Source of the DNA: Bacillus multifaciens
GTDB lineage: Bacteria; Bacillota; Bacilli; Bacillales; Bacillaceae_G
Assembly: GCF_030756675.1 (NCBI RefSeq)
Contig: NZ_JAVBXD010000022.1
Span: 1 to 64,000, forward strand
Reading direction: 5' to 3'
Length of the DNA: 64,000 nt
In this document: positions 38,150 to 63,220 of the stretch, piece by piece
Position numbering within the stretch: the stretch's first letter is position 1
Layout of the letters: the number at the start of each line of letters is the position of its first letter
The notes under the pieces: model-generated
Database searches by the model: none
Told to the model about the DNA's origin: nothing
Seen by the model: the letters and a program-made list of their open reading frames with translations, nothing else
Made by a program: the position numbers and the translations under genes

Positions 38150-38172
38150 ATTTTATATAGATACTTTTTGCT

Positions 38173-38298
38173 GAATCCATATGGAACGGAGGACCCGTTA
38201 TTGTAAGGAGAAACTTACTAGGGGTGAATCTTGAACAGTAGGGTACCCTTCAAGGCCCGAACCCGACAGCTAACTTCGTAAGCATAACTGGAGGGATT
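38173..38298 (+). ncRNA. c-di-AMP riboswitch (ydaO-yuaA type)
   Basis: The conserved blocks occur in order: GGAGGACCC (38189-38196 region), GGGGTGAATC (38221-38230), GTAGGGTACCC, and CCCGAACCCGACAGCTAACTTCGTAAGC (38256-38283, best-conserved core CAGCTAAC). A GTAAG...CTTAC hairpin lies inside. The closing stem pairs GAATCC (38173-38178) with GGGATT (38293-38298). No terminator follows, and the GGAGGG within the closing stem is the SD of the next ORF, so ligand binding would probably block translation. Confidence 0.85.
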
Positions 38299-38307
38299 AC
38301 TTATGTT

Positions 38308-58173: not shown

Positions 58174-58265
58174 TAACCCCCACTTAAATTCTAACGAATT
58201 TTGAAGTGAGGGCTAATAATTAGTGGGGATGAAGCTCCCCTCCACTGATTAAAATTTCGCTTTAT
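58174..58265. repeat. bcr1-like variant element (about 92 bp)
   Basis: ACCCCCACTT...TTTTGAAGTGAGGG, then TAATTAGTGGGGATGAAGCTCCCCTCCACTGATTA and TTTCGC-TTTAT at 58261-58265. The GCCCG/CGGGC middle is missing. Its right end supplies the last codons of the MFS gene at 58249. Confidence 0.7.
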
Positions 58266-59454
58266 GATGTTCCATCTGATACTCTTTTCGGGTTAATAAA
58301 ACGAGAGAAAGTCCTCCCATTAACAACATCACAATTAATGAAATGACCCCAATCCAATGGAAATGCTCCCAAAAGTAACCACTAAATGAACCAACAAAGC
58401 TTGAACCTAGATAATAGAATAATAAATACAATGCAGCAGCCTGTGCTTTATTTACGTCTGCATATTTTTCAATCGATGCACTAGCAATAGAATGACTTCC
58501 AAAGAAACCAAATGTAAAAATGGATAAACCAACAATTTTTACAACAAGGTTTGGAATGAGTGTCACTAATGCTCCTATCATCATAATCGTAATCGAAACC
58601 ATAAGTGTAAATGTTCTACCATGTTGATCTGCTTGTTTCCCCATAAATACAGAGCTAAACGTTCCTATCACATATACAATAAATAAAAATCCAATGAGCG
58701 TTTGACTTAATGAATATGGCGGTTCCTGTAATAGAAATCCAATATAATTGTACAGTGTGACAAAGCTACCCATAAGTGTAAACCCAAGTAATATGGTTGC
58801 CACTAATTGTTTGTTTTTAAAATGTATTGTATACGCATTCCACATGGAGCGGACATGAACTGCTTTTTTCTTAGAGTTCATTGGAGTAGGTAATGTACGC
58901 CAAAATAGAATACTACAGATGACCGTAAGAATCCCAAGTAACCCTAATGCAACTCTCCATGACGAAAGATCCGTTGCAATGCCAATAAAAATACGCCCAG
59001 TCATCCCTCCTATCCCATTACCACAAATATAGAGCCCCATAACCTTTCCTAATCCACTTGGCTCAAATTCTTCTCCAATATAAGTCATTGCAATAGAAGG
59101 TAAGCCTGCTATACATATCCCAAGTAATCCTCTTAACAAAACAAGCGTGATAAAATTAGGACTAAATGCTGTCAGCATCCCAATCATAGAGGTAAGAAAC
59201 ATGGATAATATCATAATACGTTTTCGACCAATTACGTCTGAAATTGATGCTGCAATCAGCATCATAATTGCCATTATACCTGTTGTAATAGATAATGTTA
59301 TACTTGCTGCTGCTGCGGAAACATGAAACTCTTTTGCTAATATAGGCAATAATGGCTGCGTTGCATACAGCGTAGCAAATGTAACAAATCCGCCAAGAAA
59401 CAATGCTATGCTAGCATTTGTATATGTCTTTGTTCCTTTTTGGATATAAGTCAT
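58249..59454 (-). CDS. MFS transporter, divergent from a LysR regulator
   Basis: 401 residues, twelve membrane segments; ASISDVIGRKRIMILS (about 62-77) is the MFS loop. AGAGGAG precedes the ATG at 59454 (the frame extends to 59478). The last four residues and stop (KAKF*) come from the bcr1-like repeat, so the native C-terminus has been replaced. Probably regulated by the divergent LysR protein. Confidence 0.85.
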   Translation of the reverse strand: MTYIQKGTKTYTNASIALFLGGFVTFATLYATQPLLPILAKEFHVSAAAASITLSITTGIMAIMMLIAASISDVIGRKRIMILSMFLTSMIGMLTAFSPNFITLVLLRGLLGICIAGLPSIAMTYIGEEFEPSGLGKVMGLYICGNGIGGMTGRIFIGIATDLSSWRVALGLLGILTVICSILFWRTLPTPMNSKKKAVHVRSMWNAYTIHFKNKQLVATILLGFTLMGSFVTLYNYIGFLLQEPPYSLSQTLIGFLFIVYVIGTFSSVFMGKQADQHGRTFTLMVSITIMMIGALVTLIPNLVVKIVGLSIFTFGFFGSHSIASASIEKYADVNKAQAAALYLLFYYLGSSFVGSFSGYFWEHFHWIGVISLIVMLLMGGLSLVLLTRKEYQMEHHKAKF

Positions 59455-59521
59455 TGCAATCTCCTCTTTTCCTATCAAAACTACACTCTTTATGCTACGC
59501 TTCCTTTATCTATGTGTCTAA

Positions 59522-59549
59522 TTTATAATTTGCATCATATCGATAACAA
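59522..59549 (-). promoter_or_regulatory. Promoter of the MFS gene in the divergent region
   Basis: Minus-strand TTGTTA (59544-59549) and TATAAA (59522-59527), 16-bp spacer; TATCGATA within it is a candidate LysR half-site. Confidence 0.4.
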
Positions 59550-59574
59550 AAACGTATAACAAGGAGAAGACGAT

Positions 59575-60462
59575 ATGGAATGGCATCAAATTGAGAATTT
59601 TATTGCCGTCGCGAAATATAACCATTTTACAAAAGCAGCGAAAGAACAATTAGTGTCTCAGCCTGCTCTTAGCCGTTCGATCTTAAAATTAGAAGAAGAG
59701 CTTGGTGTACCATTATTTATACGAGAAGGAAAAACAATCTCCTTAACTAAGTATGGAGAAATGTTTTTAAGAAGAGCGAAACAAGCACAAAGTGCATTAC
59801 ATACTGGTATCGCGGAAATACAGGAAAAAGTTTCTCCTGATAGAGGAGAAATTTCAATTGCGTTTTTGCACACTTTAGGCACTCGTCCAATTCCAGAGAT
59901 TGTTGCTAATTACAAAAAGATTTATCCAAAAGTGACATTTCAAATGTATCAGGGAGCTAATATTAACCTTTTACAAAAAGTAAAAGATGGAGTAGCAGAC
60001 ATATGCTTGTCTTCTCCACCAATTCCACATGAACAAATTGAATGGGAAACATTAAGAATAGAACCTTTATATTTGACAGTTTCAAAAGCACATCCACTTG
60101 CAAAGCAAAGTAGTGTGTCATTTCAAGAACTAGGAAATGAAGAATTTATCTGTTTTAAAGATGGTTATGGCCTTCGTTATATATTTGATCAAATGTGTGA
60201 ATCTCTTCAAGTTCACCCTAAAATTACATTTACGGGAGAAGAAATTACAACAATCTCTGGATTAGTATCCGCTGGACTTGGTATAGCCATCTTACCGAAA
60301 GTCAAGGAGTTTAACCAATCTCAACTACATTTTCTAGAAATTACTGACTATCCTTGTGAACGAACCATTGCCTTAGCTACAGCGCATAATCATTATTTAT
60401 CTCCTGCCGCAAAAACGTTTAAGGAATTTATTATAAGACATTTCCAAGAATACACTCCTTAA
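59575..60462 (+). CDS. LysR-family transcriptional regulator
   Basis: 295 residues: winged HTH at about 1-60 (NHFTKAAKEQLVSQPALSRSILKLEEELGVPLFIREGK) and a periplasmic-binding-like effector domain at about 90-290. AAGGAG precedes the ATG. Divergent orientation from the MFS gene 120 bp away is the classic layout for a LysR protein and its target. Effector unknown. Confidence 0.9.
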   Translation: MEWHQIENFIAVAKYNHFTKAAKEQLVSQPALSRSILKLEEELGVPLFIREGKTISLTKYGEMFLRRAKQAQSALHTGIAEIQEKVSPDRGEISIAFLHTLGTRPIPEIVANYKKIYPKVTFQMYQGANINLLQKVKDGVADICLSSPPIPHEQIEWETLRIEPLYLTVSKAHPLAKQSSVSFQELGNEEFICFKDGYGLRYIFDQMCESLQVHPKITFTGEEITTISGLVSAGLGIAILPKVKEFNQSQLHFLEITDYPCERTIALATAHNHYLSPAAKTFKEFIIRHFQEYTP

Positions 60463-60744: not shown

Positions 60745-60780
60745 TACTTCAAAATCAGAGGAGAAAGGGAGCAAAGAACT

Positions 60781-60837
60781 ATGCTTACTAATACAACTGT
60801 AGTTACATTTGCACAAAAACATCATCATCATACGTAA
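60781..60837 (+). CDS. Histidine-rich leader peptide (18 residues, four consecutive His)
   Basis: ATG at 60781 with GGGAG 9 bases upstream encodes MLTNTTVVTFAQKHHHHT, stop at 60835-60837. The four CAT codons (60820-60831) sit just before a set of mutually exclusive hairpins and an intrinsic terminator, the signature of ribosome-mediated attenuation sensing charged tRNA-His. Such leaders are well known for enterobacterial his operons; Bacillus more often uses T-boxes. Confidence 0.8.
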   Translation: MLTNTTVVTFAQKHHHHT

Positions 60838-60949
60838 ACCCTTGAAACCTAGCGGAAAAATTTACGCGTAGGTACAAGGGTTATTCCCGTTGTACCTACG
60901 TTAGGCAAAGAGCCATGTAGGTATTTTTTATCTACATGGCTCTTTTTTA
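60838..60949 (+). promoter_or_regulatory. Transcription attenuator controlled by the His leader peptide
   Basis: Four segments: 1 (60838-60851, ACCCTTG..CCTA) pairs with 2 (60869-60881, TAGG..CAAGGGT). 2 pairs alternatively with 3 (CGTAGGTACAA 60867-60877 with TTGTACCTACG 60890-60900, 11 bp, plus GGG/CCC). 3 pairs alternatively with 4 (TACCTAC 60893-60899 with GTAGGTA 60917-60923). 4 is the left arm of the terminator AGAGCCATGTAG / CTACATGGCTCT (60909-60943) followed by six T. A ribosome stalled at the His codons leaves 1 free, so 1:2 and 3:4 form and transcription continues; one at the stop codon masks 1, 2:3 forms and the terminator forms. Confidence 0.75.
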
Positions 60950-61018: not shown

Positions 61019-62443
61019 ATGGAAACAAAAAAATGGGGTTTATGGATTTTAACAGCATTCGTTGTTGGAAATATGGTTGGTGGCGGCGTGTTTATGCTTC
61101 CGGCAAATTTAGCACAAGTATCTGGACCAATGGGATCTACACTTGCATGGACAATTACCGGGCTAGGTGTATTTATGATTGCACTCGTGTTTGGAAACTT
61201 AGCAATGCGAAAACCAAATTTAAAAGCAGGTCCGCAAAGTTATGCCGAGGCAATGTTCACTTCACCAAAAGCTGGTAAAGTTGCTGGTTATAGCATGGCG
61301 TGGGGATACTGGGCGGCAAACTGGGCGGCAACAGCTTCTGTCATTATTTCATTTGCAGGATATTTATCTACATTTTTCCCAGTTCTGCAAAGTAAACAAG
61401 TTTTGTTCACGACAAATGGTTTCTCATTAGAACTAGGAAAAGCCTTAACATTTGCTGTATGTAGTGTGATGCTATGGGGCATTCAATATATTCTTTCGCA
61501 AAATATTGATCGTGCTGGTAATATGAATTTACTTGCAACTGTTGCTAAAATTATTGGCTTTACGATGTTTATTATCATTACATTATTCATTTTTAATGCA
61601 GCGAATTTCGGCGATGGGCAAACGTTTATGGATGAGGCTGGAAAATCTATTCCATTAGGCGGACAAATCAATGCTGCTGCTATCGCAACACTTTGGGCGT
61701 TTATTGGTATTGAATCAGCTGTTATGCTTTCAAACCGTGCAAAGTCACAGAGCGATGTAAAAAAGGCAACGATTTTCGGATTAGTAATTGCTCTTCTTAT
61801 TTATGTAGCCATTACATTGTTAACAATGGGTGCTCTTCCACAAGAGGCGCTAAAAGGATCACAAAAACCATTAGTTGATGCATTAAACATGGCGATCGGT
61901 AATAAAGGTGCATACATTATGGCCTTTCTAGCACTTGTTTCTCTATTCGGTTCTACAGTAGGCTGGATCGTTGTAAGTGCAGAAGTTCCATATCAAGCAG
62001 CAAAAAGCGGACTATTCCCTGCATTCTTTGGAAGAACAAATAAAAAAGGAAGTCCGAAAAACTCATTGTTATTAACAAATATCATGACACAAATATTCTT
62101 ATTCTCTACCATTTCTGGGTCAGTATCAGAAGCGTATAACTTTGCAATTGTTGTCGCTACGCTTGCTTATTTAATTCCATATCTTGTTTCAACAATGTAT
62201 CAATTAAAACTCGTTATTACTGGTGAAACATATAACAACATGCAAGGCTCTCGCAAATTAGACGGAGTCATCACAGTACTTGCTCTTCTTTATTCCATTT
62301 GGGTTATTAAAACAGGAACAGCTGATATGAAAACTTTCTTACTAGGAATCGGATTATTTGTAATTGGACTCGTTCTTTATCCATTCATTATGAAAAATAC
62401 AATTGAAAATAAACCAGATACACTTGATACAAAAGTCAGTTAA
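61019..62443 (+). CDS. APA-family amino acid transporter (basic amino acid type), His-attenuated
   Basis: 474 residues, twelve membrane segments of the basic amino acid/polyamine antiporter family: VVGNMVGGGVFMLPANLAQVSGP near the N-terminus and LWAFIGIESAVMLSNRA (about 220-236) are the family blocks. Relatives exchange arginine/ornithine, lysine/cadaverine, arginine/agmatine or histidine/histamine. Its control by a histidine leader peptide points to histidine or a derivative as substrate, probably uptake when histidine is scarce; this is inference. AAAGGAG precedes the ATG. No decarboxylase is adjacent. Confidence 0.85.
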   Translation: METKKWGLWILTAFVVGNMVGGGVFMLPANLAQVSGPMGSTLAWTITGLGVFMIALVFGNLAMRKPNLKAGPQSYAEAMFTSPKAGKVAGYSMAWGYWAANWAATASVIISFAGYLSTFFPVLQSKQVLFTTNGFSLELGKALTFAVCSVMLWGIQYILSQNIDRAGNMNLLATVAKIIGFTMFIIITLFIFNAANFGDGQTFMDEAGKSIPLGGQINAAAIATLWAFIGIESAVMLSNRAKSQSDVKKATIFGLVIALLIYVAITLLTMGALPQEALKGSQKPLVDALNMAIGNKGAYIMAFLALVSLFGSTVGWIVVSAEVPYQAAKSGLFPAFFGRTNKKGSPKNSLLLTNIMTQIFLFSTISGSVSEAYNFAIVVATLAYLIPYLVSTMYQLKLVITGETYNNMQGSRKLDGVITVLALLYSIWVIKTGTADMKTFLLGIGLFVIGLVLYPFIMKNTIENKPDTLDTKVS

Positions 62444-62497: not shown

Positions 62498-63220
62498 CTA
62501 TTGTTTCCCTTTTAACATACGATATGCTGCAAATCCAGCGATTCCAAATCCAGCAATTGCAGAGAATTGCCATAATGTTGGTCCATTATCAATATAGATC
62601 CAGCCATCTCTGTCTGGAACCCAATCGATTGTATTTTTCGCTGGGCAAACTTGTCCACTTACGTTTGATTTTAATGCAAAGCGAATTTCCCTTTGCTTAT
62701 CTAACCCAAATTCTTTTAAGGGGACTCGGAATTCTATTTGCTTCTTATTACTACTCACGGAAAGAGTTTGTTCTTGAAAACTTCCCGCTGTCACTTTTAC
62801 AGCATATTGGTTTCCTTTTCCAACATTACCTACCCATACAATTGGATAGCGATACTTCATCATTTGACATTTCCCATTAATTTCTACATATTCCCACTTC
62901 TCTTGTCCACCTTGCGCGGCATCTGGAAACACAACATGAAATGTCCAGCTATCTTTATGATGTCCTGCTGCTTGTCTCTCTACATATAAATATAAATATT
63001 CACCGTCAGAATAATATTTAACACCCGTAATATCTTCATGATTCATTCCATTTGGTACATCACCTTTTATATCGGAAATATACGGCATATTAGTCCAATC
63101 AGAAAAATTTCCGTCAATTGTAATAGGAGGTTGCTTAGTGGCTGCGAATACTTGTAGTTTAGCGATATATAATACACTTACAATTACTAAAAATGACACA
63201 AGTAGTTTTCTATATTTCAT
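62498..63220 (-). CDS. Secreted CBM9/DOMON-like protein with Firmicu-CTERM-like anchor
   Basis: 240 residues: signal peptide (about 1-27, VFAAT), a beta-sandwich (about 30-205) with the sugar-binding-type opening ITIDGNFSDWTNMP and two Cys (KCQMM, VCPAK), then PTLWQFSAIAGFGIAGFAAYRMLKGKQ (a Pro-anchored hydrophobic segment ending in a basic tail). This tail resembles the Firmicu-CTERM sorting signal linked to the exosortase-like enzyme XrtG, as I remember the family. It follows a GT2 gene separated only by a bcr1-like element. GGAGGAG precedes the ATG. Confidence 0.7.
   Translation of the reverse strand: MKYRKLLVSFLVIVSVLYIAKLQVFAATKQPPITIDGNFSDWTNMPYISDIKGDVPNGMNHEDITGVKYYSDGEYLYLYVERQAAGHHKDSWTFHVVFPDAAQGGQEKWEYVEINGKCQMMKYRYPIVWVGNVGKGNQYAVKVTAGSFQEQTLSVSSNKKQIEFRVPLKEFGLDKQREIRFALKSNVSGQVCPAKNTIDWVPDRDGWIYIDNGPTLWQFSAIAGFGIAGFAAYRMLKGKQ

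Follow-up and report, generated by a model that had tools for sequence, protein, structure and literature searches.

Upstream of an amino-acid transporter gene in Bacillus multifaciens lies a very short open reading frame that carries four consecutive histidine codons and is followed by a strong intrinsic terminator, an arrangement that raises the questions of whether transcription of the transporter is attenuated in response to histidine and whether histidine is also what the protein carries. The window referred to throughout is the whole stretch of 64,000 nucleotides analysed from this species. The 18-codon reading frame, the Shine-Dalgarno-like sequence and the four CAT codons proposed in an earlier note on this DNA were all located by inspection and by script, and the stop codon does adjoin segment 1 as that note had claimed, since segment 1 starts on its last base (Table 1). 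The description of a four-segment attenuator falls one short, there being five arms once the 3' arm of the terminator is counted.

Table 1. Parts of the putative histidine attenuator and the gene behind it (positions in the window).
Feature	Position	Strand	Sequence or detail	Basis
Shine-Dalgarno-like sequence	60764..60771	+	AAAGGGAG	read in sequence
Leader peptide ORF	60781..60837	+	MLTNTTVVTFAQKHHHHT; 18 codons; ATG 60781-60783, CAT x4, ACG, stop TAA 60835-60837	sequence and script
His codons	60820..60831	+	CAT x4, consecutive	sequence
Segment 1	60837..60844	+	AACCCTTG; shares last base of stop codon; pairs with segment 2	helix counts, fold model
Segment 2	60867..60882	+	CGTAGGTACAAGGGTT; pairs with segment 1 or 3	helix counts, fold model
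Sub-arms of segment 2	60867-60877; 60875-60882	+	CGTAGGTACAA (2:3 arm); CAAGGGTT (1:2 arm)	
Segment 3	60890..60900	+	TTGTACCTACG; pairs with segment 2, or with 4 through TACCTAC (60893-60899)	
Segment 4	60909..60923	+	AGAGCCATGTAGGTA; antiterminator partner GTAGGTA (60917-60923); also 5' terminator arm	
Segment 5	60932..60943	+	CTACATGGCTCT, then T-run	
Intrinsic terminator	60907..60949	+	17-pair stem (60907-60945) and T-run	terminator scan, covariation, fold model
Transporter gene	61019..62443	+	APC-superfamily basic amino-acid transporter, 474 aa, proposed histidine permease	HMM, orthologs and their regulation

The Shine-Dalgarno-like sequence stands 9 nt before the leader ATG, and AAGGGAG likewise precedes the leaders of two related elements (L145 and L146). 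The terminator scan found one terminator against a mean of 0.1 in shuffled sequences, the folding energy of the leader region (z = -7.32) was reached by none of 200 shuffles, and a search of both strands of the 64-kb window for ORFs of 8-40 aa with HHHH gave this leader alone. Helix energies were -20.6 kcal/mol for 1:2, -22.8 for 2:3, -13.9 for 3:4 and -25.8 for the terminator (4:5). No sigma-70-like promoter passed a simple scan (1.9 expected in shuffles), and the whole-window Rfam scan gave neither a family at gathering score over the leader region nor any match to His_leader (RF00514). T-boxes (RF00230) were absent from the window and from the 39 of 50 ortholog loci scanned, and these 39 loci likewise showed no riboswitch ahead of the transporter. 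The leader, the competing helices and the terminator form a real element.

A scan of genome contigs gave 50 transporter loci, none of them titled as B. cereus group, with 79% identity for the best match. The same attenuator was found at two of these loci, which hold the nearest orthologs obtained, in Ectobacillus panaciterrae (L048, 79% protein identity, leader MFNVTLFAQLHHHT) and Bacillus sp. 165 (L019, 74%, leader MFNTTMFVQLHHHT), each leader having three CAT codons; among 19 genomes from that family, no others had a transporter match above 70% identity. In both, the core of the attenuator is almost unchanged and the leader peptide is changed: residues before the His run mostly differ, while the run, the stop codon and the position of segment 1 on its last base are kept. 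In all ten members of the element examined, the start of segment 1 lies 1-2 nt downstream of the stop codon's first base. Viral contigs contained neither the element (exact patterns) nor the transporter, and plasmids contained no similar leader and only transporters below 60% identity.

For covariation, the arms were read by hand from the ten members, because two MAFFT alignments (A2 and A6) placed L089/L150 and L175-L177 out of register. Standard pairs made up 80/80 positions in helix 1:2, 104/110 in 2:3, 68/70 in 3:4 and 116/120 in 4:5, with changes on both sides at 4/8, 5/11, 2/7 and 4/12 pair positions, respectively. When the 3' arms were re-dealt among members 20000 times, the observed pairing was reached 0 (1:2), 1 (2:3), 8 (3:4) and 6 (4:5) times, frequencies that are not probabilities since the member rows are related. 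In a further alignment (A5), 95.7% of the cells of 2:3 and 4:5 were paired, compared with 32-50% when the arms were slid, and 11 pairs had double changes (shuffled mean 6.3); further pair types (25) were not in excess over shuffles (23.6; 142 of 500 reached 25). Single base changes can be followed through several arms, as in L150 and L177, where segments 2 and 4 both read GTGGG and segment 3 reads CCCAC. Having a codon-run ORF, mutually exclusive helices and conservation linked to the gene, the element is a putative leader-peptide transcription attenuator of the histidine type.

Genes of at least six kinds lie behind attenuators of this type. A covariance model (R1), built after a DNA search from the window, L048, L019 and L088, gave 47 matches in 42 of 397 genomes; 34 matches were inspected, and 21 (in 18 genomes) were accepted because a leader with a His run precedes each. 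The other 13 (12 plus L178) were rejected as terminators without a His leader. Gene types were assigned by HMM: hisS* stands behind L150 (G021) and L149 (G258), hisD behind L151 (G101; above the cut-off), and a Na+/H+ antiporter-family permease (PF03553, PF13726; no NCBIfam match) behind L176 and L177 (G005, G007). We take this permease to be YuiF, the known histidine permease of the HisR regulon. The genes of L149 (hisS*) and L176 (permease) lie about 600 nt and about 400 nt behind the terminator, so that the links there are looser. Weaker, more divergent elements stand ahead of hisZ-like genes at L153-L162, in ten related genomes, and at L170 (G011); for L158 and L170 the top model was TIGR00443, with both scores under its cut-off, and the other nine of L153-L162 were judged by their likeness to L158, the only one of the ten tested, which they resemble in N-termini and leaders.

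Three further observations concern these genomes. In G005 and G007 a closely similar His attenuator is immediately followed by a gene for a protein of 150-163 aa (L087:1033-1524, minus strand; L088 from about 1640, plus strand); the L087 copy had no Pfam or NCBIfam match, and the gene is apparently tied to histidine. The Ectobacillus genome (G001) holds a second His attenuator (L175:1507-1632 and downstream, leader MIAKKIQFMTTAHHHF) before an alpha/beta hydrolase gene. No His attenuator or His leader was found at the Ectobacillus hisZ gene (L116); a palindromic element, AACTTTCGTTTCGAAAG, lies right before hisZ in G001 and G006 (L116 and L115), both genomes lacking HisR, with no His leader.

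The transporter scored 352.9 bits against TIGR00905, below the cut-off of 409.05, also matched PF13520, and fell well below the cut-offs of the arginine-ornithine and histidine-histamine models; among PDB structures its best relative was AdiC. These profile scores mark it as a clear relative of TIGR00905 without making it an equivalog of the arginine, histidine-histamine or ornithine models. The earlier note had presumed that bacilli mostly control histidine genes by T-boxes, a premise that fails for Bacillales, where HisR is the usual control; in the available text of Ashniev et al. (2022), HisR is described as the most common control of histidine genes in Firmicutes, with cacTTTAnnnnnnTAAAgtg as the consensus of the HisR (YerC) operator (PMC9413887). 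Most orthologs without the attenuator share the upstream motif CACTTTACCAAACTAAA. The strict pattern CACTTTAnnnnnnTAAA occurred in 33 of 50 ortholog upstream regions (250 bp) against none in 281,942 flanking bases of the plus strand.

To score HisR sites, a symmetrised matrix was built that started from the published consensus and took its training exclusively from 21 his-operon promoters, every one belonging to a genome of the set that has HisR. These were drawn from 30 his loci after removal of seven from genomes without HisR or with the attenuator (L115-L118, L127, L142, L144), of L143 (a hisS-type match) and of L129 (match starting inside the gene). With this matrix, 46 of the 50 ortholog upstream regions exceeded the 99% level set by 768 control windows, and 41 outscored every one of these windows, the controls being flanks of the same loci and largely coding rather than matched promoters. 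A HisR-type site was thus predicted for 46 of 48 orthologs without the attenuator and for neither of the two with it (L019, L048), counts that do not represent independent events since the 50 orthologs include many that are closely related to one another (Peribacillus); the other two below the level were L001 (8.1 against a level of 9.0) and L045. The exact form TTTAn6TAAA was present upstream of only one of 30 his genes (L123, at three chance-like places) because sites of his operons mostly read ATTA, a difficulty that the trained matrix solved.

The hisR gene (TIGR02531) was present in 46 of 65 genomes searched and absent from G001, G002, G005, G007, G021 and the ten genomes with hisZ attenuators. 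HisR and the attenuator occur together in G011, G101 and G258, so that 15 of the 18 genomes with accepted attenuators lack HisR and the two devices are not mutually exclusive. Most orthologs other than the attenuator-bearing ones are predicted members of the HisR regulon, having a predicted operator and hisR in the genome. Two Bacillus species (L004, L007) have, besides a HisR-type site, a leader of another kind, rich in His codons (seven or six; HHHRYHHHSC, HHHQNHHHSC), at about -165 to -77 before the transporter; no terminator was seen there by eye and no convincing alternative fold was obtained, and this leader is possibly a translational version.

Paralogs with 53-57% identity to the window protein carry the lysine riboswitch RF00168 at five of the seven loci given to Rfam; we take them to be YvsH-like, members of the same transporter subfamily that differ from the window protein in this upstream element. 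In a tree of 51 rows (the window, 42 of the 50 loci, five lysine rows and three outgroups), the window protein fell in a group of 41 rows (98/100) that held no lysine rows and whose inner branching was largely unresolved; two Alicyclobacillus orthologs with HisR-like sites fell outside it, with four lysine rows (96/74). Between 23 rows of the histidine group and the five lysine rows, 11 columns differ, ten without exception and one with a single exception. T105 of the window protein aligns with N101 of AdiC and is Thr in 23 of 23 histidine-group rows and Asn in all five lysine rows, which further separates the YvsH-like paralogs. The accessible parts of the structural literature describe N101 as crucial for arginine binding in AdiC (PMC5877779) and an aromatic pair, W202/W293, as sandwiching the arginine (PMC4970712); by eye, this pair aligns with Trp in the window protein.

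The earlier note's assignment of the transporter to histidine gains support from the attenuator on two orthologs, the HisR-type sites on most of the others and the lysine riboswitches on the paralogs. Since the attenuator and histidine-repressor-type sites would both mean expression when histidine is scarce, they fit uptake and not export, and the protein very probably imports histidine and is subject to ribosome-mediated attenuation. The most serious alternative, which we consider unlikely, accepts the His attenuator but has the transporter moving another cargo, by histidine/histamine or amine exchange, by export of histidine, or as a carrier of lysine or arginine. Membership of the basic amino acid/polyamine antiporter group (TIGR00905), with arginine-ornithine and histidine-histamine models matched below cut-off, and the lysine riboswitches of more distant paralogs would agree with such a cargo. 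However, control by starvation together with the HisR-type sites speaks for uptake, none of the four neighbouring proteins scanned is a decarboxylase, and the residue at the AdiC N101 position is unlike that of the lysine rows. Histidine as the substrate would set this transporter group apart from its lysine-controlled relatives, and would provide a probable substrate for a widespread group vaguely annotated as 'basic amino acid/polyamine antiporter'.

Taken with the fold model described below, these sequence comparisons make it highly likely that the element is a ribosome-mediated attenuator that senses how fully tRNA-His is charged and regulates an APC-superfamily histidine transporter. We infer that the leader is translated and that the switch responds to histidine as follows. 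RNA polymerase would transcribe the leader with a ribosome following on the 18-codon ORF. With ample His-tRNA, the ribosome would get to the stop codon and cover segment 1, 2:3 would pair, segment 4 would be free for segment 5 and transcription would end at about 60948. With scarce His-tRNA, the ribosome would wait on the His run, leaving segment 1 open for the formation of 1:2, whereupon 3:4 would pair, the terminator would be blocked and the transporter would be made.

In the fold model the RNA was taken as made to 60925, with the ribosome assumed to cover 12 nt past the first base of the A-site codon. The probability of 3:4 was 1.00, 1.00 and 0.97 with His14, His15 and His16 in the A site and dropped to 0.06 with His17 and 0.04 at the stop codon; with an assumed cover of 10-16 nt the flip remained sharp, its midpoint shifting from His17 to His15. 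After shuffling of 60837-60866, none of 200 sequences reached a probability of 0.9 (95th percentile 0.03). In the full-length transcript, 2:3 and the terminator were favoured thermodynamically in every ribosome state, so the switch must be kinetic and be decided during transcription. The same fold test on nine other members agreed for L145, L146, L148, L150, L176 and L177, with L148 reaching only 0.71 at the first His; L151 and L175 kept 3:4 at the stop codon (0.99 and 0.62) and would be leaky, and in L149 3:4 was absent in every state.

When Gln12 or Lys13 occupied the A site the probability of 3:4 was 0.99-1.00 and without any ribosome it was 0.68, so that the predicted default of untranslated RNA is mostly read-through, as is the predicted outcome of any halt of translation before the fourth His. 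In the trp and his attenuators of E. coli, untranslated RNA terminates. The window element would therefore have a parity opposite to that of E. coli his: a ribosome at the stop codon would mask segment 1 and bring about termination, whereas untranslated RNA would mostly be read through. The earlier note's account of stalling and completion agrees with the fold model, the covariation of each helix and the fixed place of segment 1, except that the stall need not be on His. Because a stall ahead of the run would also be read through, specificity for histidine would reside in the codon run alone.

These values fit an alternative in which the leader senses a general failure of translation and not histidine, with any stall before the last His, or no translation at all, being read through. 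We regard it as improbable: most of the residues ahead of the CAT run differ in the orthologous leaders, yet the run itself persists, and relatives ahead of his genes have two or three adjacent His codons at or near the leader end, features that are hard to explain without sensing of histidine. It would be still less probable for the His-rich peptide to act by itself, for example by binding metal, the hairpins being merely a terminator. Runs of histidine do bind transition metals, but such a role would leave unexplained why helices 1:2 and 3:4, which exclude each other, covary, why segment 1 has a fixed position at the stop codon and why his genes lie behind related elements. A chance meeting of a His run with a strong terminator is barely credible since the element is conserved: simple CAT repeats can arise randomly, but this is the sole short ORF with HHHH in a window where the leader fold is so far outside shuffles, and near-identical elements stand before two orthologs at 74-79% protein identity.

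An attenuator reading tRNA-His is not in itself a novelty in bacilli. Naville and Gautheret (2010; PMC2965389) have described leader peptides of the histidine type ahead of hisZ and hisS* in bacilli; going by the available description, they resemble the window element in having a short ORF with a His run, a terminator, a gene of histidine metabolism behind it and a Bacillus lineage, and differ in that the targets given are hisZ and hisS* and not an APC transporter. RNA attenuators of his operons in six species of the B. cereus group were reported by Ashniev et al. (2022; PMC9413887) and are likewise described, in the text available, as having three to five consecutive His codons, a terminator and an antiterminator; the attenuator rows of their Table 3, as accessible, cover his operons only. 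The HisR regulon table of the same report lists, in its available form, the his operon, yuiF, hisXYZ*, hisR and tdcP-tdcA-tyrT, without a transporter of the window type.

In the his attenuator of E. coli and Salmonella (RF00514) a ribosome on the His codons also chooses between terminator and antiterminator. Within Bacillota, the ilv-leu leucine attenuator of S. aureus is another case of leader-peptide control of amino-acid genes, differing from the window element, according to the accessible part of its report, in the amino acid, in RNA architecture and in serving a biosynthetic operon; there, mutation of the leader stop is predicted to relieve repression (PMC5794164). The literature located on histidine transporters, leader peptides and HisR in these bacteria, in the parts available, contained no report of a transporter of the window type, although mention in supplements is possible. 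The earlier note's view that a leader peptide on a lone transporter is unusual is accordingly tempered by the His leaders already reported in bacilli (PMC2965389, PMC9413887), none of which is reported for this transporter in the text accessible. His attenuators in bacilli are already known; this transporter would be a new target among them.

A wider reading, which we judge about evenly balanced between right and wrong, is that a Bacillaceae group of histidine transporters outside the published HisR and attenuator tables is tied to the histidine regulon through two unrelated mechanisms. These would be a HisR operator in most genera and, in the window and the Ectobacillus lineage, where HisR is mostly lost, a spreadable five-arm His attenuator of reversed parity, in which termination needs a ribosome at the leader stop and untranslated RNA reads through, so that failing translation would be sensed as well. 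In related bacteria, regulation of the same gene would have changed from a repressor to an RNA attenuator, and the reversed default would offer a clean and cheap test of how Gram-positive attenuators of this type work.

Other features were observed around the locus. Just upstream of the attenuator, at 58249-60462, the window encodes a LysR-type regulator (GltC-like matches below cut-off) adjoining and divergent from an MFS transporter, and on the minus strand at 62498-63220 it encodes a protein whose Firmicu-CTERM sorting domain scores 54 bits (TIGR04145; cut-off 50). The sole Rfam match in the whole-window scan was a c-di-AMP riboswitch (RF00379, 91.5 bits) at 38159-38299. In Weizmannia acidilactici, parts of a group II intron (L022:2293-2866) lie shortly upstream of the transporter.
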